Part shown: positions 16,554 to 37,466 of the stretch, piece after piece
How the letters are laid out: each line of letters opens with the position of its first letter
Position numbering within the stretch: the stretch's first letter is position 1
Source: Verrucomicrobiota bacterium
Lineage (GTDB): Bacteria > Verrucomicrobiota > Verrucomicrobiia > Opitutales > UBA2995
Assembly: GCA_027622555.1 (NCBI GenBank)
Contig: JAQBYJ010000054.1
Coordinates: forward strand, 1-37,707
Reading direction: 5' to 3'
Length of the DNA stretch: 37,707 bases
The notes under the pieces: model-generated
Databases searched by the model: none
What the model was told of the DNA's origin: nothing
The model's input: the letters and a program-made list of their open reading frames with translations, nothing else
Made by a program: the position numbers and the translations under genes

Positions 16554-17251
16554 ACAATAATGAATAAACCTGAGTACGCACCTAGAGGAGCAAAACCGCA
16601 ACAAAAGTTTTTTCGACCACAGATTTCTCAGATGGACCCAGATTAAGTGATAGATTCTTAATAAAGATTGGTTATTGAAAACTGACAAAAATCACCGGAA
16701 ATAATGGAAAAAAATACAGAATTTAACCACCAGTCTCCGCCAAGGCTACGACACGGCACGGCTGATGGCACAGATTTTCACTGATTAGAAATCATCAAAT
16801 TATTCGTTATCACTAATTAGTTTAGGCTTTTCAAAGGGAGACTACATTCAGCTTTTCGCGTATTTCAGCGCATTTCGTAGTTAAAGCATTTTTCTTCGAA
16901 TTTATTTCACACTGATTAACTCAGATGGGCAGGATTGCTGTAGTAGATTCTTAACCACCAATGGACGAATTATTGAACAAGAGCTAACTGAGATAGCGGA
17001 GTACGAACCGCCTGAAACAACGAAGTGAACAACATACTTTTTACATAAGAACTCTGTTTCCTTTGTTACCTTGTTCAAATCAAATAATTGCTCCATTTGA
17101 GAAAAGAACAACATCCAGAGATCAATTGAAAGAAGTAGTTTGAATTCTTGGCTTAAAAACAAGATTCCAGCGGATAGTGGTACCAAGAGCACGAAGAAAT
17201 ACCTGATTCTATCTTTGCATCCTTGGAGGCTTGGTGGTTCATCTTTCTTCA
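16554..17251. repeat. Gene-free stretch with degenerate dispersed repeats
   Basis: No convincing gene is seen in about 700 bp. The stretch holds decayed copies of short motifs that recur between genes in PVC bacteria: a CACAGATTTCTCAGATGG type at about 16617-16644, related pieces at 16768-16786 and 16908-16935, a TTTCGCGTATTTCAGCGC type at about 16855-16880, and a TTTCCTTTGTTACCTTGTT type at about 17050-17073. A 116-residue minus-strand frame across 16902-17252 is built from these repeats and overlaps the next gene. Confidence 0.4.
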
Positions 17252-17896
17252 ATGTCCATCAAAACCTGTCTCTTTGACCTCGACGGAACTCTGACTGATC
17301 CCAAGCCAGGGATCACTGGATCCATTCAATATGCGCTGAAGAAGCTCGGACAAACCGTGCCGAGCCAGGACGAATTGGAGTCCGCGATCGGCCCTCCTCT
17401 CCTTGAAACTTTTATGCAGTTTATGGGAGGAGATTTAGATGCAGCCAGGCAGGGGGTGCTTTTCTACCGTGAACGTTTTGGCACCATTGGGTTGTTTGAG
17501 AACAGGGTGTACCCGGGCATCCACGACTGTTTGACAAAGTTGAAGGACGCAGGCCACTCACTCTTTGTCGCTACCTCAAAACCACATTATTACGCCAAAC
17601 AAATTGCCACGCACTTTAAGTTCGATCATTTTTTTGGCCACATTCACGGCAGTGAAATGACGGGTGAACGCCAGGATAAGGGCGACTTGATACAATACAT
17701 AATTGAAACTGAAGGCCTCAGAGCAGAGACCACGATAATGATCGGCGATCGCAAGCACGATATTATCGGCGCTAAGAAAAACAATTTAAGAACCATTGGA
17801 GTTACCTATGGATATGGCTCCAGGGAAGAACTGACGACAGCCGAGGCAGACGAGCTTGTGGAAACTCCGGCTGAGATTTCAAAATTACTTTTGTAA
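17252..17896 (+). CDS. HAD-family phosphatase, 5'-nucleotidase/phosphoglycolate phosphatase-like
   Basis: This 214-residue cytoplasmic hydrolase has motif I FDLDGTLTDP with nucleophile D9 and acid D11, motif II in VATSKP, a conserved lysine after the GSEMTGERQDKGD segment, and motif IV IGDRKHDIIGA with the metal-binding aspartates. An alpha-helical cap (about residues 16-85) lies between motifs I and II, as in subclass IA. The whole pattern, including PPLLETF and YGYGSREEL, is that of the HAD_5NT/Gph-like group, which dephosphorylates small phosphates such as nucleotides or phosphoglycolate. The ATG at 17252 is chosen because it places the family's N-terminus correctly; a TTG at 17231 lies only 1 nt after GGAGG. 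It converges with the thioredoxin gene, 19 bp apart. Confidence 0.88.
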   Translation: MSIKTCLFDLDGTLTDPKPGITGSIQYALKKLGQTVPSQDELESAIGPPLLETFMQFMGGDLDAARQGVLFYRERFGTIGLFENRVYPGIHDCLTKLKDAGHSLFVATSKPHYYAKQIATHFKFDHFFGHIHGSEMTGERQDKGDLIQYIIETEGLRAETTIMIGDRKHDIIGAKKNNLRTIGVTYGYGSREELTTAEADELVETPAEISKLLL

Positions 17897-17915: not shown

Positions 17916-18881
17916 CTACTGTGATTCCGAAACAAAAACCAGTCGTGAAAACTTACTTGCTCCTCCCAGCGGAACATTCGATCGGATCCTTACTTTCTCC
18001 AAACCACCTTCCATCGATTCCGTAGAAAACGGTGCATTGCCGATGAGTGATTCGAAACCAGGACTTAAACTAAACTGAGGAACTACGGTAACATCGGTTG
18101 CCTCCGGATTTCGAATAAACTCAAGGACATGGTAATCGACTGAACCGATTGACATAATTTTGTTTACCGGACGAGAGAATGAAGCGGTATCCGAAGCATC
18201 GGTACCAAAAAAGTATTCAAGAACATTGGGAATGCCATCGAAGTCGGGATCGTCCTCTTCGGCACGTTGGTTTTCAGGAAGCTGAAGGCCATTCAGATAA
18301 TCCACAAATCCGGGAACCACCTGGGCGGCCTTAACGGAATTAATGACATTTCGAAACTCGGTGATTGGTGCAGTCAGATCACCATATCCCAAATGAGAGT
18401 ACACCAATTCCCATTGCTCATGACTTGCGGAATTTTTTACGCCATTAATAATGGCGAAGATGGGTTGACCTCCGGATTGAAAGCGGTTGGCGACAGCTCG
18501 ATTAAAGTCATTCAGGACAAATGGGAGTTGATAGAAATTAATAAAATTCTGCGTGGGGCTTTCGGCACCACCTTGAAGGTTGAGGGCAACGTGCATAAAC
18601 TCAACCCCATCTGCATTCCCGTTTCGACTACCGTAATAATCAATCAAGCCAGGACCAATCGCACCGGCTGCAGCTTTGCAGAAAGGACACCAGTAAGCAA
18701 ACCACTCCAGGAAAATCACCTTTCCTTCCAGATCATAAAGACTCACTGGCTGATTAGTTTCGCGATTCGTTAAGGTGAAGTTTTCTACGATATCTCCAAC
18801 CTGATACCGCTGGGCTTCAAGGTTTGAAAACGCGGAGGTCAACAGTGTTGTCAGTAAGAAGTTTTTGATGAATCGAGACAT
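17916..18881 (-). CDS. TlpA-like thioredoxin-fold protein with verrucomicrobial C-terminal domain
   Basis: This 321-residue exported protein has a signal peptide (residues 1-23, ending SNLEA), a redoxin/TlpA domain (about 25-185) with the active site WCPFC (C65, C68), and a C-terminal region from about 205. The C-terminal region opens with DPDFDGIPNVLEYFFGTD, a calcium-type acidic motif common in secreted Verrucomicrobiota proteins. It should carry out thiol-disulfide exchange outside the cytoplasm. It is the last gene of a three-gene operon, 12 bp after the barrel gene, and faces a small lipoprotein with two C-terminal cysteines encoded at the operon's head. That gives a plausible local substrate. 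The C-terminal domain may act in sorting or surface attachment; this is inference. Confidence 0.85.
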   Translation of the reverse strand: MSRFIKNFLLTTLLTSAFSNLEAQRYQVGDIVENFTLTNRETNQPVSLYDLEGKVIFLEWFAYWCPFCKAAAGAIGPGLIDYYGSRNGNADGVEFMHVALNLQGGAESPTQNFINFYQLPFVLNDFNRAVANRFQSGGQPIFAIINGVKNSASHEQWELVYSHLGYGDLTAPITEFRNVINSVKAAQVVPGFVDYLNGLQLPENQRAEEDDPDFDGIPNVLEYFFGTDASDTASFSRPVNKIMSIGSVDYHVLEFIRNPEATDVTVVPQFSLSPGFESLIGNAPFSTESMEGGLEKVRIRSNVPLGGASKFSRLVFVSESQ

Positions 18882-18893
18882 AACAATAGACAG

Positions 18894-20015
18894 TTAGAGG
18901 GATCGACTAACCGCAATTTGGGCAATCGTCCAATCGCGATCGCTGTACAAATTTTGGAAGAAATCGATACCTGGATTGGTTGGCTCATAGTCATTCTCAA
19001 GTGGGGCCGCATAAATCCTCATTGACCACTGATCACCAATCCATCTAACGCCGATGCCAACGCGACTACTCTCCAAGCCGGGTGCAGCGCTCGTGAAGAG
19101 GAGTGCATTTTCAATTTCGCCCGTATCTTCATAATACCAACCGTCGACAAATATATAACATTTATCGGAGGCCTGATACTCCAAGGCGACGCCCCCATAA
19201 AATGCTTCGAACTGAGGATCTTCTTTCGAGCCACCTACATTCCAACGTGAAACCCACTGTTCTCCATGAGCTACATTGATGTTAGCACCGACTCCATATC
19301 GGGTCGACCGATCAGTGGTTTGTGTCACCCTGAATTCAAGAAAGGAGCGAATGTTTTTCGTCAGAATATTCTCAGTCGATAGACTTGCCGCAACCGTATC
19401 TAAAGTGAGCTCACCTCGACGCAGTCCATCAAAATCAATTTCGTAACCCGGTGACACATCATCTCGAAGGGCCGAAATACTGAATTGGGCAAATCCATTG
19501 CCCGGTTGATACTCCCAACGAGTACCAGCCGTTGCATTGATGCCCTTAGGGTCAGCTTCGACATAGTTCTCTGCTCCGGGAAATCCGTACAACTCACTAA
19601 ACTGTTGCCGATAGTATTCATCGAGCCAAACAGATCGATAGTTCGTAAATCCATCGTAAGCCCCGGCTCCTCCCGATAGCCACCAATGGTCACCGAGTTG
19701 TTTCTTTGAATTAAATTGAATGGCAATAATTCTTTCACTCACCGCTTTTTCCTCTCCATTAAAGTCGAAAGCAACCGGTTGATAATCCAATTGATAGTCG
19801 CCGTAAGCCAGACTGATCGAAGATTCCCAATTGTCAGAATTAAAGTCACCTATCCAGCTTAGTTGTTTCAGCGTTATGTCGTCCGAATCAACCCACTCCA
19901 ACCCGCTATCCCAATTTGCCACTTCAATCGAATAAGCTACCCGGAACATAAACAGGATTTGGATAAAACCCAAGGCGGGAGAATTCATCCCTAGAAATTT
20001 AATTGACGCTCTCAT
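18894..20015 (-). CDS. Predicted outer-membrane beta-barrel protein of a lipoprotein/thioredoxin operon
   Basis: I do not recognise this 373-residue protein with certainty. It has a possible signal peptide (hydrophobic about 14-30) and then alternating amphipathic strands rich in aromatic residues (WESSISLAYGDYQLDY, WWLSGGAGAYDGF, SRVGIGVRWIGDQWSMRIYA), ending IAQIAVSRSL. That is the texture of an outer-membrane barrel of about 12-16 strands. In other bacteria a DUF4266 lipoprotein gene is typically followed by a DUF3570 barrel; this protein occupies that position but lacks motifs I can match to DUF3570. It begins 3 bp after the lipoprotein stop and ends 12 bp before the thioredoxin gene, so the three are almost certainly co-transcribed. 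Transport of, or interaction with, the lipoprotein is a reasonable guess. Confidence 0.65.
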   Translation of the reverse strand: MRASIKFLGMNSPALGFIQILFMFRVAYSIEVANWDSGLEWVDSDDITLKQLSWIGDFNSDNWESSISLAYGDYQLDYQPVAFDFNGEEKAVSERIIAIQFNSKKQLGDHWWLSGGAGAYDGFTNYRSVWLDEYYRQQFSELYGFPGAENYVEADPKGINATAGTRWEYQPGNGFAQFSISALRDDVSPGYEIDFDGLRRGELTLDTVAASLSTENILTKNIRSFLEFRVTQTTDRSTRYGVGANINVAHGEQWVSRWNVGGSKEDPQFEAFYGGVALEYQASDKCYIFVDGWYYEDTGEIENALLFTSAAPGLESSRVGIGVRWIGDQWSMRIYAAPLENDYEPTNPGIDFFQNLYSDRDWTIAQIAVSRSL

Positions 20016-20018
20016 CGC

Positions 20019-20258
20019 CTATCGACATGCCGTGCAACCAGCCGCAGCGGCTCCTCCGGAAACAGCACTGCCCGGCTCAATTTGAGGCAATAGATTAACC
20101 CGGTCTCCTTCCACCATGGAATCTGAACGAGTCATCCCGACTTTTGAGACAAGAGCTTGCTCGTAAACAGGGACATTCGTGCACCCCACTGCTGCAAAAA
20201 TTCCCGGTATTATGAGAACTAAACAAATGCGACAAAGGTAGTTGGAAGGCTTAATCAT
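20019..20258 (-). CDS. Small DUF4266-like lipoprotein with C-terminal CxxC
   Basis: This 79-residue protein has a lipoprotein signal (hydrophobic about 9-24) with the lipidated cysteine C26 in AAVGC. The position -3 residue is alanine, which is atypical. The mature part is about 54 residues: NVPVYEQALVSKVGM, a polar linker, then SGGAAAAGCTACR with C75 and C78 at the very end. The layout (VxxYE start, conserved methionine, glycine-rich tail, terminal cysteine pair) fits the DUF4266 family, whose members usually end GGGCGCN. The terminal pair could bind metal or be oxidised and reduced by the thioredoxin-like protein encoded two genes downstream. It heads the operon. No function is established for the family that I can cite. 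Confidence 0.7.
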   Translation of the reverse strand: MIKPSNYLCRICLVLIIPGIFAAVGCTNVPVYEQALVSKVGMTRSDSMVEGDRVNLLPQIEPGSAVSGGAAAAGCTACR

Positions 20259-27370: not shown

Positions 27371-30300
27371 CTAAGCTTGGGTCAGTGGCCCAGCTTCCTC
27401 TTCCACATGTTCATTTAGATCGATGTTATACAATTTACAGAAAGCCAGTTTAATATCGTCGTAAATCAGAACCAAAACCGGTATCAAAAACAGCGTGATG
27501 GCTGTAGCGAACGCAATACCCCAACCCAAGGAAATTGCCATTGGTACCAGAAAGGCTGCTTGAGGACTTGTTTCAAACATAAGCGGACATAAACCAAAAA
27601 ATGTGGTCGCAGAAGTAAGCAAAATCGGCCGAAAGCGTCTAACACCTGATAAACGAACAGCTTCACCAAGTGGCATACCCTCTTTCGTTTTCGCATTCAT
27701 AAAATGAACCATCACAAGGCTATCATTCACAACCACGCCCGACAAGGCCATCATGCCGAATATCGATTGCATAGTCATGATTGGATCACCGCCGTTCCAA
27801 CCAAAAACCTTGGCCATTATCCAGTGTCCCAACAAGGCTCCTACGACACCAAATGGAATCGCTGACATAACTATCAAAGGCTGCACGTAACTTCGAAATG
27901 GGATGGCTAACAGAGCATATACGGCCCCGAGAATTACAAAGATGCCGACAACAATTTCCATCATATTGTCACGATTATCTGCCGCATACCCTTGCAGACC
28001 AAATTCCATTCCAGGATATTTCGTTGCCACTAACTCTGGTAAATATACGTCCAATAAATCGAACTGAATTGATTCAGTATCGGTTACCAAGGTGTCGGCA
28101 TCAGCTCTTACCTCAATAATCCGTTTTCTATCAATACGCCGGATGGAGGGTAGACTTTTTCCTGGGACAATTTCAGCAACCGTATCAAACGGAACTTCAG
28201 AACCATTCGCCGTTCGAATCATCATCGTTTGAAGTGAACCGAGGGATCGACGTTCGCTTTCAGGATAACGAACCATAACCTTCACTTCATCACGCCCCCG
28301 TTGAATGCGTTGTACTTCCGATCCAAAAAATGCGGTTCTAACTTGCTGTGCCAAGTTAACAGCCGTAATCCCCAGATACTCGGCCTCAGGTTTAAGGTCC
28401 AGCTGGTACTCTTCGCTGGCGCGCTCATAGGAGTCTTCGATGTCGTAAAATCCATCATAAGAAGCCAGTTTTCTCTGCAACTCTGCCGAAGCAGTTTTGA
28501 GCATATCAATATTGGGATGAATGAGTTCAATGCCAACGGCTGCGCCGGAATCAAATCGGGAAAAGGAAAAATTTAATTGTTCAGCTTCCGGAATGGGAGG
28601 AACCAGCTGACGCAAATCAGCTACCAGCTCTCTACCACTGTAAGCTGAATCCCGAGTTTCAGAAGGTGTTAATTCTATGAGGAGCTCCCCCATTTCCGCA
28701 ATGCCAGCAACGGGACCACCAGATCCTCCGCGCCCACGGCCGAACGGTTGGCCTCCGGCGGTAGCAAATACATTTAGAACTACCGTCTCTCCGAATCTTT
28801 CGTTCACCTCATCTTTTAACTTTAGAGCCACATCTTCAATCATCCCAACTTTTTCCAATGTCTTTTCAAACGAGGTACCTGCCGGCATTTGAAGCGTGAT
28901 GGTTGTAGTGTCTGAAGGAATGTTAGGAAAGGTCCGAAAACCGATTCGCTCACCTAAAACCAAAGCCACGAATATCAGGAGAAAGCCTACAAATAGAGAT
29001 ACAGAAACATAACGATTTTTGAGAGCCCAGTTGAGCATCGGTTTATAAGACTTTAGGATAAACCTTTCTAAACCATTGGAAAAGAATCGTTGAAAACGGC
29101 TAAAGATATTTAGTTTCTGCTCCCGGTCTGCAAGATGCGTGCAGTGCTTCAGGTGTGCTGGTAGAATAAGCTTCGATTCGATTAACGAGAAAAATAAAAC
29201 CGGAATTACAACCATGGGAATGTTGCTGAAAAAACTCCCCATAAATCCAGACATCATCATCAGGGGATAAAATGATACCATCGTGGTTATAACACCAAAG
29301 ATTACAGGAACGGCCACTTCCTGCGTTCCTTTGATCGATGCGGTCAGGGGGTTTTCCCCGCGCTGCATTCTCTGAAACACATTTTCCCCAGTGACTATGG
29401 CGTCGTCTACGACTATCCCCAAAGTTGTAATAAAGGCCATCAAGGTAACAATGTTTATACTTAATCCCAAAAACGGCATCACCAGGAATGCTCCTCCAAA
29501 TGCGATGGGAATACCCATTGCTACCCAGAATGCTAACGACGGCCTGAGAAACATAGAAAGAATAATCAGCACCAACACATATCCCATTATAGCACTATTC
29601 CTTAAGGTGCTTAGACGAACTTTGATTCTCTCAGTATCGTCATCCCAGTAGGATAAATGAATTCCCTCGGGCAATTGTACCTGTTTTGTAACTATCCACT
29701 CTTTTACGTTTTCTCCAATCTCGATAATATTTTGTGACCCCGTTCTAAATACATCTATTGCAATGGCACGCCCACCATTGAAATGCGCAACAATAGGAGT
29801 CTCATCAAAATCGTCACGGACCTCAGCGATGTCTCCTAACTTGAGCCTGGTTCCATCTTCACGTGTCAGAAGCGTAATAGATGCAAAATCCTCGCGGTTG
29901 TATGCTTGTTCGTTGGTACGCAGAAGAATACGACCTGTCTCAGTCTTTACACTACCTGCGGATAAATCGACAGAGGACGTTCGAATTGCCCGAATGATCT
30001 GATCAAATGTCAATCCGTATTGGAGCAGTGTCGCCTCGGATACTTCAATCGCAATTTCGTAGGGGCGGACCGCTTTTAATGAAGTCAAAGAAATACCAGG
30101 AATGTTGGACACTTCGTCCCGGAGCTGCTCTCCCAGGGTCTTTACTTCCTTCTCACTTAAATCTCCCGCAAGAACGATGGTGATGACACGTTCAGAACGA
30201 GAAGCCAAACTGATCTGAGGCCGCTCGGCCTCGGGGGGGAAAGTCCTAATCGTAGATACGCGATTCGTGACCTCATCCAGCTTTTCACTGAGATTATAGC

Positions 30301-30598
30301 CGTCTTCAATTTCCAACATCACAGTTCCCACACTGGAGTTAGCAGTTGCCTGCATTTCCTTGATGCCTTCTATATCGTACAAATTTTCTTCAAGCCGCGT
30401 AAGAATACTCTGCTCAATTTCTCCCGGCGTGGACCCAGGATACAGCACTGTCACCGTAATAAAACGCATAGGAAACTCAGGATATTGCTGCAGAATGATC
30501 TTGTTCGTCCCAGACCAAATGCCACCAGCAACGATCGCCACCATTAACAAATTGGCGGCTACTCCGTTTCGTGCAAACCAGGCTATTATTCCATGCAT
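27371..30598 (-). CDS. RND efflux permease, copy 1
   Basis: This 1075-residue inner-membrane proton-driven exporter has AcrB/MexB architecture: TM1 at about 11-30, a large periplasmic domain, TM2-6 (about 335-500), a second periplasmic domain and TM8-12 (about 870-1045). The proton-relay aspartates of TM4 are present in GIVVDDAIV near residue 398. In TM10 the motif is GVVVNDSLV near 956, so the AcrB relay lysine is replaced by asparagine, while RFRPILLTS keeps the arginine and threonine. The second periplasmic half has a Gly-rich loop (FGRGRGGSGGPVAG) that differs between copies. It is the most distal gene of the array, separated from copy 2 by a 352-bp gap with palindromic repeats. Substrate unknown; no adaptor gene is seen. 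Confidence 0.93.
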   Translation of the reverse strand: MHGIIAWFARNGVAANLLMVAIVAGGIWSGTNKIILQQYPEFPMRFITVTVLYPGSTPGEIEQSILTRLEENLYDIEGIKEMQATANSSVGTVMLEIEDGYNLSEKLDEVTNRVSTIRTFPPEAERPQISLASRSERVITIVLAGDLSEKEVKTLGEQLRDEVSNIPGISLTSLKAVRPYEIAIEVSEATLLQYGLTFDQIIRAIRTSSVDLSAGSVKTETGRILLRTNEQAYNREDFASITLLTREDGTRLKLGDIAEVRDDFDETPIVAHFNGGRAIAIDVFRTGSQNIIEIGENVKEWIVTKQVQLPEGIHLSYWDDDTERIKVRLSTLRNSAIMGYVLVLIILSMFLRPSLAFWVAMGIPIAFGGAFLVMPFLGLSINIVTLMAFITTLGIVVDDAIVTGENVFQRMQRGENPLTASIKGTQEVAVPVIFGVITTMVSFYPLMMMSGFMGSFFSNIPMVVIPVLFFSLIESKLILPAHLKHCTHLADREQKLNIFSRFQRFFSNGLERFILKSYKPMLNWALKNRYVSVSLFVGFLLIFVALVLGERIGFRTFPNIPSDTTTITLQMPAGTSFEKTLEKVGMIEDVALKLKDEVNERFGETVVLNVFATAGGQPFGRGRGGSGGPVAGIAEMGELLIELTPSETRDSAYSGRELVADLRQLVPPIPEAEQLNFSFSRFDSGAAVGIELIHPNIDMLKTASAELQRKLASYDGFYDIEDSYERASEEYQLDLKPEAEYLGITAVNLAQQVRTAFFGSEVQRIQRGRDEVKVMVRYPESERRSLGSLQTMMIRTANGSEVPFDTVAEIVPGKSLPSIRRIDRKRIIEVRADADTLVTDTESIQFDLLDVYLPELVATKYPGMEFGLQGYAADNRDNMMEIVVGIFVILGAVYALLAIPFRSYVQPLIVMSAIPFGVVGALLGHWIMAKVFGWNGGDPIMTMQSIFGMMALSGVVVNDSLVMVHFMNAKTKEGMPLGEAVRLSGVRRFRPILLTSATTFFGLCPLMFETSPQAAFLVPMAISLGWGIAFATAITLFLIPVLVLIYDDIKLAFCKLYNIDLNEHVEEEAGPLTQA

Positions 30599-30815
30599 AT
30601 TTTCTGGAAAGTTGGATTCAAGGGATCTCAGATATTGTAAATCTCAACAAATGAATCACTCTGACTTTTAATGCGAGTTTAAGAACGGAGATGAAAGCAT
30701 TTTAATCTTCCCGAAATGTGGTGCCTGAAACCAGCTCAATACTAAACCCTTTTACAGAGCTCAAATGAAGTTACCAAAACCTAGAACATGTTAACCTTAT
30801 TCTTTCGCTGAAAAT

Positions 30816-30911
30816 GGTAGGGCGGTTGTTGTTCGCTTCGCTGTCGACTTCGTCTTCGGTAGGCCCAAACCGCCGATTCCACGACGGCTCGCTCGGCGAT
30901 CGAGCCCTACC
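30816..30911. repeat. Composite palindromic repeat, including dispersed copy C
   Basis: The outer arms GGTAGGGC (30816-30823) and GCCCTACC (30904-30911) and inner arms GGCGGTT (30821-30827) and AACCGCC (30868-30874) are nested inverted repeats. Positions 30882-30911 carry the dispersed unit GGCTCGCTCGGCGATCGAGC, itself a GGCTCG/CGAGCC hairpin. It fills part of the 352-bp gap between RND copies 1 and 2 and may reduce or end transcription between them. No gene is seen in the rest of the gap. Confidence 0.65.
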
Positions 30912-30950
30912 TAAAATAAAATAGTTGTGACCATTTACAGTTAAACAGCT

Positions 30951-33900
30951 CTAGCTTTTAACCAGTATCTCATCTCCCTCATCGCCACGATCAATGGGAT
31001 CGATGTTGTAGAGTTTATAAAATACCTTTTGAATATCGTTATAGACCAATACGAGCACGGGTATGAGAATAAGTGTGATCGCAGTGGCAAACACAATACC
31101 CCAGGCCAGGGAAATGACCATGGGAACCAGATCAACAGCTTGAGGACTGGTTTCAAACATCAAGGGTGCCAATCCAAAGAAGGTGGTCAATGAGGTGAGT
31201 AGAATGGGACGAAAGCGTTTAACTCCGGCAAGACGAACCGCTTCATTGAGAGGCATACCTTCCTTCAGGCGAGCGTTCATGAAGTGAACCATGACCAGAC
31301 TGTCGTTCACCACTACTCCGGAAAGAGCCATCATGCCAAAGATAGACCGTTGGGTAATAATGGGATCCCCGCCGTTGAAGCCGAAGACCTTAGCCATAAT
31401 GTAATGGCCCATTATCGCTCCTACCACCCCGAACGGAATGGCTGACATCACTATAATCGGCTGAAAGTAGCTTCTAAAGGGAATAGCCAGCAGCGCATAG
31501 ATGACCGCCAAAATGAAATAAATTCCTACGATCATTTCCCGTTGATTGTCACGGGCAACCGCAGAAAAACCCCGTACACCGAAATGCAGACCCGGATACT
31601 TGGTGGCAACCAGCTCAGGTAAATATTCTTCGAGGATTTCCGTTTCCATCGATTCGATGTCCAGCTCCGTCGTATCACCATCAGCACTTACCTGGATCAC
31701 GCGCTTGCGGTCGACCCGTTGAATAGATGGCAGGCTCTTGCCCGGAACGATGGTAGCTACTGTTTCAAATGGCACTTCAGTTCCATTGGCCGTTCGAATC
31801 ATCATGGCCTGAAGCGACCCTAAGGAACGTCGTTCCGATTCCGGGTAGCGGACCATCACCCGAATTTCATCGCGTCCACGCTGGATACGTTGAGCCTCCG
31901 ATCCAAAAAATGCCGTCCGCACCTGTTGGGCCAGATTGGTGGCTGTTACCCCAAGATACTCAGCCTCGGGTTTCAGGTCCAATTCATACTCCTCATTGGC
32001 CTTTTCATAGGAATCCGTTATGTCAAATAAACCTTCAAAAGAAGCCAGTTTTCGTTGGAGGTCCGCGGAGGCTTCCTTGAGCATTTCGACATTAGGGTGA
32101 CTCAGCTCTATGGTAATAGCCGAACCTGAATTCCAACGTTCAAACGAAAAACTCAACTGCTCAGCCTCCGGTATGGGCGGAACCAGTTGGCGCATTTCGG
32201 ATACCAAATCCCGACTACCGTAATTCGCATCCCGTGTTTCCGAAGGAGTCAGTTCAATTATAACCTCTCCCGACTCTGCCTGCCCTACTGTGAGCTCTCC
32301 AGCCCGACTATACGAATTCCCAAATGGATGACCTCCCGATGTAGCGAAGACGTTTTGAATAACCGTAGTTCCAAAGCGTTCATTCACATCCTTTTTCAAT
32401 TTGAGAGCCACCGATTCAATCAAATCCACCTTTTTCTGAGTTACCTCAAAAGTGGTACCCGCGGGCATTTTCAAGGTGATATTGGTTGTATCCTGCGCGG
32501 TAGTGGCATACCGGCGATATCCAATTCTCTCGCCTAAAACGAGTGCCACAAAGATCAATAGAAACCCTATAAATACAGAGGTGGATATATACCGATTAAT
32601 CAGTGCCCAATTTAACACAGGTCGGTAATATTTTAGAATAAATCGTTCCAGACCATCCGCGAAAAACCGTTGTAATCTGGAAAAAAAATTCTGTTTCGAC
32701 GTTTTATCGGCCAAATGAGTGCAATGCTTCAAATGGGCTGGAAGAATCAACTTGGATTCAATTAAAGAAAAAAACAAAACCGGGATGACAACTTTGGGGA
32801 TGTTCGAATAGATAGTCCCTAATACACCTGATTGCATCATGATCGGGAAGAACGCCACCATGGTTGTAATCACACCAAATATAACCGGAACGGCCACTTC
32901 CTGTGTTCCTTTTATCGAAGCAGTAAGAGGCTTTTCGCCACGTTGCATGCGTTGAAACACATTTTCACCTGTGACAATGGCGTCATCCACCACAATACCC
33001 AAGGTCATGATAAAGGCCATGAGGGTAATGACGTTGAGAGACATTCCCAAAAACGGAAGTACTAAAAACGTACCAGCAAATGCGATGGGAATTCCCCACG
33101 CCACCCAGAACGCAAGCGTAGGACGGAGAAAAAGGGAAAGGATAATAACCACCAGAATGAAACCCATAATGGCACTATCCATGAGAGTGTTTAGCCGTAC
33201 TTTGATTTTCTCAGAATCATCGCCCCAATAGCTCAATTTAATGCCTTCCGGAAGCTGTTGCTGTTTTATGGCGAGGAACTCCTTCACGTCGTCACCTATT
33301 TTGATGATGTTTTGCAGACCTGACCGGAAGACATCGATCGCAATGGCACGCTCCCCATTGTATTTCGACACAATGGGTGTTTCATCAAAGCCATCGATAA
33401 CCGTGGCTAAATCGCCCAGTTGTAATTTTGTTCCGTCGGACCGGGTCAGCAGAGTGATAGAGGAGAAATCCTCACGGTTGTAGGCCTGTTGATTGGTCCG
33501 AAGCAATATGCGACCCGTATCCGTTTTAACGCTTCCGGCTGACAGATCAACGGAAGAGGAGCGAATGGCCCGGGTGACCTGATCGAAGGTAAGACCATAC
33601 TGTTGCAAAGTGGATTCTGAAATTTCTATAGCAATCTCATAGGGACGGACGGCCTTCAGCCCAGCCAGAGTAATTCCGGGGATATTGGAAACTTCATCCC
33701 GTATCTGCTCACCCAGCTTCGTTAGTTCTTTCTCACTTAATTCACCGGAAAGAACCATCGTGATAACGCGTTCACTTCGACTAAAGAGACTGATTTGCGG
33801 ACGTTCGGCTTCGGGCGGAAAGGTTCGGATAGTGGAAACACGATTGGTCACCTCATCCAGTTTCTCACTCAGACTGTAACCTTCTGAGATTTCCAGCATC

Positions 33901-34178
33901 ACCGATCCGGCACTCGCACTCGCTCTGCCGGTCATTTCCTTAATGCCTTCGATATCGTAGAGAGCTTCCTCAAGTCGAGTGACGATAGCCTGCTCAATTT
34001 CTCCAGGCGTAGAGCCGCGGTAAGTAACGGAAACAGTGATGTAGGGGTAGGTTCTATCCGGGTACTCCTGAAGAATGATTTTGTTGGATGTCGCCCAGAT
34101 TCCACCGGCAAGAATCGCAAACATAAGCAAATTTGCAGCGACACCGTTTCGGGCAAACCAAGCGATTATTCCATTCAT
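30951..34178 (-). CDS. RND efflux permease, copy 2
   Basis: This is a 1075-residue paralog of copy 1, the same length and colinear along its whole length, from MNGIIAWFARNGVAANLLM to the YNIDPIDRGDEGDE tail. GIVVDDAIV in TM4 and GVVVNDSLVMVHF in TM10 are kept. The variable loop of the second periplasmic domain here reads FGNSYSRAGELTVG instead of the Gly/Arg-rich form. It starts 54 bp after the stop of copy 3, so they are probably co-transcribed. Positions 31099-31166 are identical to 37640-37707 in copy 4. The membrane-facing halves are the most alike and the periplasmic halves the least, as expected if the copies export different compounds or pair with different partners. Confidence 0.93.
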   Translation of the reverse strand: MNGIIAWFARNGVAANLLMFAILAGGIWATSNKIILQEYPDRTYPYITVSVTYRGSTPGEIEQAIVTRLEEALYDIEGIKEMTGRASASAGSVMLEISEGYSLSEKLDEVTNRVSTIRTFPPEAERPQISLFSRSERVITMVLSGELSEKELTKLGEQIRDEVSNIPGITLAGLKAVRPYEIAIEISESTLQQYGLTFDQVTRAIRSSSVDLSAGSVKTDTGRILLRTNQQAYNREDFSSITLLTRSDGTKLQLGDLATVIDGFDETPIVSKYNGERAIAIDVFRSGLQNIIKIGDDVKEFLAIKQQQLPEGIKLSYWGDDSEKIKVRLNTLMDSAIMGFILVVIILSLFLRPTLAFWVAWGIPIAFAGTFLVLPFLGMSLNVITLMAFIMTLGIVVDDAIVTGENVFQRMQRGEKPLTASIKGTQEVAVPVIFGVITTMVAFFPIMMQSGVLGTIYSNIPKVVIPVLFFSLIESKLILPAHLKHCTHLADKTSKQNFFSRLQRFFADGLERFILKYYRPVLNWALINRYISTSVFIGFLLIFVALVLGERIGYRRYATTAQDTTNITLKMPAGTTFEVTQKKVDLIESVALKLKKDVNERFGTTVIQNVFATSGGHPFGNSYSRAGELTVGQAESGEVIIELTPSETRDANYGSRDLVSEMRQLVPPIPEAEQLSFSFERWNSGSAITIELSHPNVEMLKEASADLQRKLASFEGLFDITDSYEKANEEYELDLKPEAEYLGVTATNLAQQVRTAFFGSEAQRIQRGRDEIRVMVRYPESERRSLGSLQAMMIRTANGTEVPFETVATIVPGKSLPSIQRVDRKRVIQVSADGDTTELDIESMETEILEEYLPELVATKYPGLHFGVRGFSAVARDNQREMIVGIYFILAVIYALLAIPFRSYFQPIIVMSAIPFGVVGAIMGHYIMAKVFGFNGGDPIITQRSIFGMMALSGVVVNDSLVMVHFMNARLKEGMPLNEAVRLAGVKRFRPILLTSLTTFFGLAPLMFETSPQAVDLVPMVISLAWGIVFATAITLILIPVLVLVYNDIQKVFYKLYNIDPIDRGDEGDEILVKS

Positions 34179-34232
34179 ACGTTTAGGGGAAACTGGGCAG
34201 ATACCAAACTTAGACCAAACGCTAAATTGGAT

Positions 34233-37200
34233 CTATGCCGACGACAAGACCTCTTTTTCGTCCTTCACATCCGAATCGTGCGGAGTGATATCATACAACT
34301 TAAATAAAGCCTGCTTACAGTCATCCGTGATCAATACCAATACCGGGATAAGGACTAAAGTGACGGTAGTCGCAAATATGATTCCCCACCCCAATGAGAT
34401 AGCCATGGGGATCAGGAAAGAGGCGGTGGAATGAGATTCGAACATAAGCGGAGCCAAGCCGAAAAAGGTGGTCAACGAGGTCAATAATATCGGTCGGAAT
34501 CGTCTGACTCCCGCCAGGCGAACAGCCTCACCCAAAGGCATACCTTCTTTCACTCTGGCGTTCATAAAATGCACCATCATAAGGCTATCGTTAACCACAA
34601 CCCCCGACAAAGCCATCATTCCAAAAATAGAGGATTGAAATAACCTCGGATCCCCATCGTTCCAGTTAAATACCTTTGCCATGATCAGGTGACCCAACAC
34701 GGCACCCACCATTCCAAATGGTATGGCAGACATCACAATTAACGGCTGAAAATAACTTCTGAACGGAATGGCCAAAAGCGCATAAATAACCCCAAGAACC
34801 AAATAAATCCCCATGATCATTTCGCGGTTGTTATCCCTTGCTTCGGCAGCACGTCCCCGCACATCAAATTCCAAGCCCGTGTATTTTGTAGCAGCTAATT
34901 CCGGTAAGAACTGCTCCAGAACTTCGGTCTCCATTCCAGTGATGTCTAATTTCTCGGTATCACCATCCGCATTTACCTGAATAATCCTTTTCCGATCTAC
35001 CCTTCGAATCGTTGGCATACTTTTTCCGGGAACTACCTGGGCCACCGTATCAAAGGGAACTTCCGTACCATTGGCAGTTCGTATCATCATTTTAGACAAA
35101 GAACCCAAGGACTTTCTGTCTTTTTCCGGATAACGCACCATGACTCGAATCTCATCGCGTCCTCGCTGAATGCGCTGAGCTTCTGAACCAAAGAAAGCCG
35201 TTCTAACTTGTTGGGCCAGGTTGGCGACCGTTACGCCAAGGTATTCCGCTTCCGGTTTTAGATCCAACTCAAACTCATCGTTGGCTCGCTCATAGGAATC
35301 ACTGATATCATACAAGCCAGCAAATGATTTCAACTTCAGCTGCAACTCCGCTGAAGCGGCTTTCAAAACATCGATGTCCGGATGAATAAGCTCGAAGGTC
35401 ATAGCACCTCCACCACCTGCACGCTCGAAGGAAAAAGTCAGCTCCTCGGCTTCCGGAATCGGTGGAACCATTTGGCGCAATTCAGTCACAAATTCGCGAG
35501 TGCTATAAGCAATACTAGTGGTACCTGTTTCAGCCAATTCAATGATCACTTCGCCTAATTCATCCACGCCTGCAGCAGCATCGGCTGTAGTACCTGGACG
35601 AGAGCGTCCAAACGGCTGCCCCCCTGCAGTCGCAAATATATTCTTAACCACCTTTTCCCCTAATCGCTCATTAACCTGCTGTTTCAGTATCAGAGCCTGT
35701 TCCTCAATAATAGTAATCTTTTCCAGAGTCCTTTCGAAGGAAGTTCCGGAAGGCATGCGCAGTGTGACCGTGGTAGTATCAGAAACCATGGTAGGCCTTT
35801 CACGATAACCGATCCGTTCGCCTAAAATCATTGCAAGAAATATGGCGAGGAATCCGATAAAAAGAGAGATGGAAGTATACCGATGCACCAAGGCTTTTTG
35901 GAGCACAGGTTGGTAGATCTTTGTAACAAAACGCTCAAGGCCATCGGAAAATAACCGCTGAAATCGCATGAAAGGATTCTTGCTTCGTTCTTTGTCTCCC
36001 ATATGGCCGCAATGCTTCAAGTGAGACGGTAAAACGAGTTTTGATTCAACCAGGGAAAAAAACAGAACCGGAATAACCACCAAGGTTATCTGGCCGAAAA
36101 ACGCTCCATTACGTCCTGACATCAACATCAACGGATAGAAAGCAACCATGGTTGTGACAACGCCGAAGAACACAGGTACCGCCACTTCCTGAGTTCCAAT
36201 AATGGAAGCTCTCAGAGGTTTTTCACCCCGTTGCATATGCTGGTATACATTCTCTCCAGTCACAATCGCATCATCCACCACAATCCCAAGGGTCGTAATA
36301 TATGCCAAAATGACCGGAAGATTGATAGTAATTCCAAGGTAAGGGAGCATGATGAATGAACCTGCAAACGCTATAGGAATCCCCAGGGCTACCCATATTG
36401 CCAAAGTCGGCCGCAGGAACAGAGAAAGCACAAGCACTACAAGGCAAAATCCCATGATAGCGCTATCAACCAACATAGATAATCGGACTTTGATTCGCTC
36501 GGCACTGTCTCCCCAATACGTTAGGCTGATCCCTTCCGGTAATTGTTGCTGCTTCACCACAATGAATTCTTTCACGGCGTCGCCGATCTCGAGGATGTTT
36601 TGCATGCCTGTTCTAAACACATCGACAGCCACGGCTCTCTTTCCGTTGTAACGAGCAACGATAGGCGTCTCATCAAATCCATCAATAACGGTCGCAATAT
36701 CGCCCAAAGTTAACTTTGTTCCATCATCACGGGTTAGAATAGTAATGGCCGAATAATCCTCAAAGGTATATGCCTGTTGATTGGTCCGCAGAAGAATTCG
36801 CCCTGTTTCCGTCTTCACAGAACCAGCAGAAAGGTCGACGGAGGAAGTTCGTATGGCTCGAGTAACTTGATCAAAAGATAGCCCATACTGCCGCAACGTT
36901 TCTTCTGAAATTTCAATTGCTATCTCGTAGGGACGAACCGCTTTAACCGCAGCCATGGTAATCCCAGGGATATTAGAGACTTCATCTCGAATCTGCTCCG
37001 CCAGGGTCTTGAGTTCCTTTTCACTCAAATCTCCCGATAAAACCATCGTAATCACGGTTTCTGTCCGACTGGCCAAACTTACTTGTGGTCGCTCTGCCTC
37101 GGGTGGAAAGGTGCGAATGGTGGAGATACGATTGGTCACCTCATCCAACTTCTCGCTTAAGCTGTAACCTTCCTCAATCTCAAGACGAACGGTGCCTCTA

Positions 37201-37466
37201 CTGGCAGAGGCAGTGGCGTCCATCTCCTTAACTCCTTCGATGTCGTAAAGCGCTTCCTCTAATCGGGTAATAATGGTTTGTTCAATCTCACCTGGCGTTG
37301 ATCCGCGATACTCTATCGAAGCAGTGATTGAGCGATCTGGGACGTCCGGAAAGTCCTGAAGAATAATTCGGGTTTTCAACGACCATGCCCCTCCTGCAAG
37401 GATGGCGATCATTAACAAATTGGCAGCTACTCCGTTTCGGGCGAACCAGGCTATTATTCCATGCAT
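34233..37466 (-). CDS. RND efflux permease, copy 3
   Basis: This 1077-residue paralog has the same layout: MHGIIAWFARNGVAANLLM start, GIVVDDAIV near residue 397, GVVVNDSLMMVHF in TM10 and RFRPILLTSLTTFFGLAPLM. Its C-terminal TM region differs from copies 2 and 4 (FESHSTASFLIPM in place of FETSPQAVDLVPM), and its variable loop is FGRSRPGTTADAAAGVDELG, followed by a divergent AETGTTS where the others have TPSETRD. It lies 28 bp downstream of copy 4 and 54 bp upstream of copy 2. No promoter is visible in those gaps, so one transcript from beyond the right edge is likely. Confidence 0.93.
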   Translation of the reverse strand: MHGIIAWFARNGVAANLLMIAILAGGAWSLKTRIILQDFPDVPDRSITASIEYRGSTPGEIEQTIITRLEEALYDIEGVKEMDATASASRGTVRLEIEEGYSLSEKLDEVTNRISTIRTFPPEAERPQVSLASRTETVITMVLSGDLSEKELKTLAEQIRDEVSNIPGITMAAVKAVRPYEIAIEISEETLRQYGLSFDQVTRAIRTSSVDLSAGSVKTETGRILLRTNQQAYTFEDYSAITILTRDDGTKLTLGDIATVIDGFDETPIVARYNGKRAVAVDVFRTGMQNILEIGDAVKEFIVVKQQQLPEGISLTYWGDSAERIKVRLSMLVDSAIMGFCLVVLVLSLFLRPTLAIWVALGIPIAFAGSFIMLPYLGITINLPVILAYITTLGIVVDDAIVTGENVYQHMQRGEKPLRASIIGTQEVAVPVFFGVVTTMVAFYPLMLMSGRNGAFFGQITLVVIPVLFFSLVESKLVLPSHLKHCGHMGDKERSKNPFMRFQRLFSDGLERFVTKIYQPVLQKALVHRYTSISLFIGFLAIFLAMILGERIGYRERPTMVSDTTTVTLRMPSGTSFERTLEKITIIEEQALILKQQVNERLGEKVVKNIFATAGGQPFGRSRPGTTADAAAGVDELGEVIIELAETGTTSIAYSTREFVTELRQMVPPIPEAEELTFSFERAGGGGAMTFELIHPDIDVLKAASAELQLKLKSFAGLYDISDSYERANDEFELDLKPEAEYLGVTVANLAQQVRTAFFGSEAQRIQRGRDEIRVMVRYPEKDRKSLGSLSKMMIRTANGTEVPFDTVAQVVPGKSMPTIRRVDRKRIIQVNADGDTEKLDITGMETEVLEQFLPELAATKYTGLEFDVRGRAAEARDNNREMIMGIYLVLGVIYALLAIPFRSYFQPLIVMSAIPFGMVGAVLGHLIMAKVFNWNDGDPRLFQSSIFGMMALSGVVVNDSLMMVHFMNARVKEGMPLGEAVRLAGVRRFRPILLTSLTTFFGLAPLMFESHSTASFLIPMAISLGWGIIFATTVTLVLIPVLVLITDDCKQALFKLYDITPHDSDVKDEKEVLSSA

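Follow-up and report, generated by a model that had tools for sequence, protein, structure and literature searches.

A conserved verrucomicrobial operon of a CxxC-tailed lipoprotein, an outer-membrane barrel and a TlpA-like thioredoxin, possibly a thiol redox module

Three genes, which encode a small lipoprotein with a C-terminal cysteine pair, an outer-membrane beta-barrel protein and a secreted TlpA/ResA-type thioredoxin (TlpA2), are kept together across the phylum Verrucomicrobiota. The conserved cysteine pairs of this gene set are found in the lipoprotein tail and in the thioredoxin active sites only. On the basis of sequence comparison it is tentatively proposed, with slightly less than even confidence, that the set may act as a module for thiol redox chemistry at the verrucomicrobial outer membrane, which would be a distant and ApbE-free sister of the DUF3570/DUF4266/TlpA electron-transfer sets.

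Operon layout and conservation

The operon is located in a window of 37,707 nt, i.e. the whole stretch of DNA that was analysed (contig JAQBYJ010000054.1 of assembly GCA_027622555.1, Verrucomicrobiota bacterium), and is read on the minus strand in the 5′ to 3′ order lipoprotein, barrel, TlpA2 (Table 1). The three reading frames, the gaps of 3 and 12 bp between them and the 54-residue mature lipoprotein with the end GCTACR were found in the sequence just as the initial annotation had given them. Among the three proteins only the thioredoxin was recognised by Pfam and NCBIfam, with a match to AhpC-TSA (29.8 bits at a cut-off of 26) and a weak match to ResA/TlpA/StoA/DsbE. The Pfam scan of the adjoining window ORFs gave a HAD hydrolase on the downstream side and a glyoxalase-like protein, DUF6614, an aldo/keto reductase and a TonB receptor on the upstream side, which are household genes with no relation to the operon.

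Table 1. Coordinates of the operon, its surroundings and related loci; positions are those of the window unless a locus is named.
Feature	Position	Strand	Basis
Lipoprotein gene, 79 aa (54 mature)	20019-20258	minus	ORF call, homologues, profile comparison
Lipobox cysteine codon (Cys26)	20181..20183	minus	sequence; invariant in 13-row alignment
Lipoprotein tail GCTACR with Cys75/Cys78 pair	20022..20039	minus	C-x-x-C-x end in 47/48 relatives
Gap lipoprotein/barrel, 3 bp	20016-20018		
Outer-membrane beta-barrel gene, 373 aa, 16 predicted strands	18894-20015	minus	ORF, AlphaFold2, fold comparison
Barrel helix 126-139 with the motif around YRSVWLDEYYRQQF, in the long loop that follows strand 5	19599..19640	minus	alignment, AlphaFold2
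Barrel motif NLYxDRDW, before last strand (last loop)	18930..18953	minus	alignment
Gap barrel/TlpA2, 12 bp	18882-18893		
TlpA2 gene, secreted TlpA/ResA-type thioredoxin, 321 aa	17916-18881	minus	HMM, model
TlpA2 active site WCPFC (residues 64-68)	18678..18692	minus	sequence
TlpA2 C-terminal tail (DPDFDGIPNVLEYFFGT region and beta-sandwich)	17919..18326	minus	genome comparison, model
HAD hydrolase	17231-17896	plus	Pfam scan
Three consecutive AcrB-type RND pump genes (1075, 1075 and 1077 aa)	27371-37466		PF00873 in each
Orphan lipoprotein with CxxC tail in G001	L037 9263-9505		
Long thioredoxin-like fusion after lipoprotein, 593 aa	L039 11052-12833		
Long thioredoxin-like fusion after lipoprotein, 599 aa	L042 6169-7968		
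Thioredoxin fused to DUF3179, downstream position	L080 3738-5495		DUF3179, 3.1e-72
DUF3570, ApbE-like, TlpA-like and DUF4266 run of the window genome (G000)	contig C38, L034 10581-13435		
TlpA2 genes with in-frame TGA	L068, L069, L071, L072, L075, L093, L097, L100		

A scan of genome contigs for the barrel with two peptide patterns, which reaches only relatives with either of them, matched 84 stretches, 55 of which were confirmed, resulting in 54 loci; 53 of these carry titles of Verrucomicrobiota taxa and one is titled 'Bacterium' alone. With local HMMs the lipoprotein was detected in all 48 barrel loci that are not cut at a contig edge (48/54 overall); the remaining six start at such an edge. 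The motif of the downstream thioredoxin was present in 51/54 loci, the exceptions being L073 (contig edge), L109 (broken barrel) and L078, in which the barrel and a lipoprotein with the tail CTACAGK, not terminal CxxCx, are kept and no TlpA2 was found. Beyond the operon set, no family from the clustering of ORFs of at least 90 aa was shared by more than seven of the 54 loci. Moreover, a lipoprotein search of 53 related genomes yielded 14 places with E < 1e-7 in 13 genomes, window included, and a 387-genome survey of the phylum yielded nine lipoprotein places with E of 1e-5 or better in seven genomes; a barrel adjoins the lipoprotein in all seven loci of the latter survey for which DNA was examined, again including the window. 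Two of the barrel loci, L068 and L103, are titled Akkermansia muciniphila; their barrels fall among those of other Verrucomicrobiota and are very unlike one another, and these labels may be loose.

Exceptions to the three-gene set were seen within the genus of the window itself. In the genome G001 (single contig, closed chromosome, 97% complete) a lipoprotein 71% identical to that of the window, with its tail intact, occurs with no barrel anywhere in the genome and no thioredoxin of the TlpA2 kind in the 19-kb stretch around it. Either the lipoprotein functions there without this barrel or the barrel was lost recently, and the case counts against a strict three-part machine. Neither lipoprotein nor barrel was found in G003, which belongs to the same genus. 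In G024 the barrel is located on a different contig, and the lipoprotein contig stops after two thioredoxin-like genes. A further long thioredoxin-like fusion follows the lipoprotein directly in two loci of one genus (L039 and L042).

The lipoprotein ends in C-x-x-C-x-stop in 47 of the 48 relatives from the barrel scan, the last residue being R (27), K (13), H (4), Q (2) or N (1), and 37 of the 47 lipoproteins with a recognised lipobox have no further cysteine between lipobox and tail. Outside this count of 48 loci, the lipoprotein of G242 has the tail CSACGE. In an alignment of 13 lipoproteins (the window and 12 others, with G004, which is cut by a contig edge, left out) the lipobox, EPG and the terminal C-x-x-C-[KR] are kept. 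The initial annotation had named three observations that would speak against its interpretation, and two of them, unlinked genes and unconserved terminal cysteines, were not what was found, since both the linkage within Verrucomicrobiota and the cysteines are conserved.

The 373-aa protein, previously described as barrel-like, was modelled with AlphaFold2 from 50 homologues as a 16-strand barrel (pLDDT 92.2, pTM 0.85), the strands being counted by hand from the DSSP line with two 4-residue strands omitted. Its most conserved stretch is the motif of helix 126-139. The N-terminus of such barrels is usually periplasmic, and provided that this applies here, helix 126-139 and NLYxDRDW would both be on the outer face. 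No cysteine of the barrel is conserved: 29/50 barrels are free of cysteine and the best column holds it in 4/50. A specific solved relative was sought by fold comparison and rejected, as many barrels of varied function align to the model with Z scores of 15-21 (up to 21.5) and none stands out.

Relation to the DUF3570/DUF4266/ApbE sets

Sets of DUF3570, DUF4266, TlpA and ApbE were assigned to extracytosolic electron transfer in 2021, and according to that source (PMC8238504) DUF3570 is flavinylated by ApbE, DUF4266 has a conserved CXC, and some clusters include DsbD or a ferrous iron transporter. The earlier remark that DUF4266 sets have no settled function is therefore only partly right; under the names DUF4266 and DUF3570 nothing was found in the literature beyond this source. 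As far as described in PMC8238504, a small lipoprotein with a terminal cysteine pair, a barrel-like protein and a thioredoxin-like protein are clustered in these sets as they are in the window, and in the DUF3570/DUF4266 loci L169 and L197 the order lipoprotein, barrel, thioredoxin is the same. In contrast, the window operon has a CxxC tail instead of the CxC seen in the 28 aligned DUF4266 rows, gives no Pfam match for lipoprotein or barrel, is without ApbE, and encodes a barrel of a family in which the flavinylation motif [ST]GA[ST] is present in 1/50 members. For ApbE, the Pfam scan of the window ORFs adjoining the operon gave no match and the clustering of the 54 loci gave no recurrent extra family. 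The motif was found in 18/29 of the DUF3570 loci looked at, so its absence from the barrels is not decisive; the DUF3570 of the window genome has TGST instead.

Direct membership in DUF4266 and DUF3570, as had been suspected in the initial annotation, was ruled out by the HMM scan, in which at E ≤ 1 neither the window lipoprotein matched DUF4266 (PF14086, Pfam cut-off 27 bits) nor the window barrel matched DUF3570 (PF12094, Pfam cut-off 25 bits). Profile-profile comparison with hhalign supports a distant kinship of the lipoprotein (46 rows) with DUF4266 (28 rows); the suspected relation is weakened all the same, since kinship is seen at this level only. The probability was 97.3 with signal peptides and 85.4 for the mature parts, the score of the latter being 27.9 versus 17.8 for the best of 60 column shuffles and 8.8 for the reversed profile; without the Gly/Cys tail 19.65 was obtained versus 13.65 for the best of 100 shuffles. 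Additionally, the lipoprotein profile of the window family (A1) reaches the DUF4266 of the same genome (E 0.007) and that of G256 (4.2e-5). For the barrel, the profile-profile comparison is weakly suggestive of kinship: 50 barrel rows against 18 DUF3570 rows, the latter chosen for the flavinylation motif, gave a probability of 67 and a score of 43.9 (reversed profile, the sole control, 19.1). This score may reflect general barrel likeness.

The window genome additionally contains a canonical set on contig C38, where the genes for DUF3570, for an ApbE-like and a TlpA-like protein and for a DUF4266 lipoprotein with the end GGGGCGCN follow in one run; the names ApbE-like and TlpA-like are sequence readings and not HMM matches. 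The one DUF4266 match of this genome above the cut-off and its DUF3570 matches are on C38. With the canonical set on C38, the set of the window is a second, separate, ApbE-free and CxxC-tailed version.

The thioredoxins and probable selenocysteine variants

Both the AhpC-TSA match and the structural model bear out the description of TlpA2 as a thioredoxin-fold protein with WCPFC, the model consisting of a ResA/TlpA/DsbE-like thioredoxin domain followed by a beta-rich tail. The best Foldseek matches were 4nmu and 1st9, and the model also matches TlpA in mixed disulfide with ScoI (PDB 4txo). TlpA2 has the fold, the active site and the Pfam family AhpC-TSA in common with the ResA/TlpA/DsbE thioredoxins and differs from them by its long, variable C-terminal tail and by TGA in place of the first cysteine codon in 8/51 relatives. 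The tail had been regarded as an unusual addition, a view that was abandoned: it is of an ordinary type for secreted proteins, at least four other proteins encoded in the same genome carry it, and relatives have unrelated modules in its place. Among eight relatives scanned, the tails were Ig-like in four (one of these with LRR), a P-domain in one and DUF3179 in one (the fusion in L080 lies in the downstream position), one protein was a thioredoxin alone, and one gave no family whatever. These modules are typical of secreted or surface proteins, so a location of TlpA2 at the cell surface is possible.

A second thioredoxin (TlpA1) was found upstream of the barrel in 22/54 loci, as a barrel fusion in 15 and as a separate protein in seven; a recount gave 14 fused and seven separate because the two domain envelopes of L075 overlap by a few residues. 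TlpA1 is absent from the window and from its closest relatives. In a quickly built tree of 50 barrels, 28 rows besides that of the window are without TlpA1, and the TlpA1 states need 10 changes. The second thioredoxin and the barrel fusion are new observations on this gene set.

In the eight TlpA2 genes listed in Table 1 TGA stands at the first active-site position, and conserved sequence follows in the same frame. In L093 both active-site positions are affected (TGA-x-x-TGA), L068 and L069 are near copies of each other, and L100 has TGA versus TGC in its close relatives L105 and L108; on the barrel tree the TGA label needs five changes. In these relatives TGA probably encodes selenocysteine. 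A selenoprotein in the window itself was rejected, since the first active-site codon of its TlpA2 is TGC, and no selenocysteine was found in the 21 TlpA1 active sites examined. Matches to RF01852 above the cut-off were obtained in 22 of 45 genomes searched, and an ARAGORN check of 17 positive genomes, which left out five weak matches (47-48 bits), gave tRNA-Sec in 13 and tRNA-Ser in four. The tRNA-Sec was present in 7/8 TGA genomes, that of L069 being without it, versus 6/37 others (Fisher p 0.00026, with genomes counted as independent despite their relatedness). The SECIS search revealed a hairpin with a GU-holding loop after the TGA in L068, L069 and L071; the folds were no better than shuffles in the five folded loci (z −1.41 to −0.01), and Rfam gave no SECIS match in seven TGA loci. 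TlpA-like selenoproteins with UxxC and UxxU, described as thiol:disulfide oxidoreductases, are already catalogued in PMC13188914. The TlpA2 relatives would share with them selenocysteine at the first cysteine of CxxC, and UxxU in L093, and differ in their linkage with an outer-membrane barrel and a CxxC lipoprotein; the families catalogued there may include these genes. No account of the present gene set was found in the literature searched on selenoprotein TlpA, on barrel/lipoprotein/thioredoxin sets and on outer-membrane thiol-disulfide transfer.

Possible functions of the gene set

In the proposed thiol redox module the lipoprotein would be anchored in the outer membrane and its flexible Gly/Ala-rich tail would bring the CxxC to the barrel, which may hold or pass either this tail or the final substrate. 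The thioredoxin or thioredoxins would exchange electrons with the CxxC, with DsbD, encoded elsewhere in the window genome, as the route by which reductant would in the end be supplied from the cytosol. Since the barrel has no conserved cysteine, the thioredoxins would most naturally have the lipoprotein pair as their partner, and with conserved cysteines only in this pair and in the thioredoxin sites, the simplest interpretation is that thiols are exchanged between the two. The idea of a lipoprotein CxxC served by the thioredoxin fits this distribution of conserved pairs, and as a whole the interpretation in the initial annotation is partly supported. The electron routes known so far cross the outer membrane by way of cytochromes or, according to a proposal, of flavins. 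A conserved, ApbE-free set of cysteine pairs, barrel and thioredoxins would be a third chemistry for electrons at this membrane, an idea made testable by the thioredoxin-barrel fusions and the probable selenocysteine variants. If the module is real, a function would also be assigned to a lipoprotein family without a Pfam name.

The boldest reading, which is considered unlikely, is a relay of thiol or selenol electrons from periplasm to surface. The periplasmic TlpA1, as fused to the barrel N-terminus in 15/54 loci, would reduce the CxxC of a lipoprotein tail lodged in the 16-strand barrel, the tail would pass the electrons to TlpA2 at the surface (with Ig-like, LRR, P-domain or other tails, and with selenocysteine in some), and the surface-displayed TlpA2 would reduce extracellular substrates.

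The main rival is metal handling, judged to be rather unlikely, in which the lipoprotein CxxC would bind copper, zinc or iron at the outer membrane, the barrel would pass the metal, and the thioredoxin would keep the cysteines reduced, as in TlpA-ScoI. CxxC pairs do bind metals. The match of the TlpA2 model to TlpA, including the mixed disulfide with the copper chaperone ScoI, and the ferrous iron transporter of some DUF3570 clusters mentioned above would agree with such a role; however, the recurrent neighbours, which were clustered and not individually named, show no prominent family of metal transporters, P-type ATPases or metal regulators, and selenocysteine in the thioredoxin would suggest turnover over upkeep.

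Two further explanations were considered. In assembly or quality control, an improbable role, the thioredoxins would serve the folding or repair of secreted or barrel proteins and the lipoprotein would act as assembly factor or plug of the barrel, with the tail cysteines as a structural or transient disulfide. Small lipoproteins do assist barrels elsewhere, as LptE assists LptD, and the tail of TlpA2 is of the secreted-protein type, but a barrel without conserved cysteine, a cysteine pair retained at the very C-terminal end of 47/48 lipoproteins and the persistence of the G001 lipoprotein without a barrel argue against it. An ordinary transport operon, composed of a substrate-specific porin, an accessory lipoprotein and a co-transcribed thioredoxin of independent function, is very improbable; the alignment of solved barrels of many functions to the model, none of them specific, would be compatible with it, whereas the thioredoxin adjoins or is fused with the barrel across the 54 loci, is doubled in 22 of them, and is accompanied by the conserved cysteine pair of the lipoprotein.
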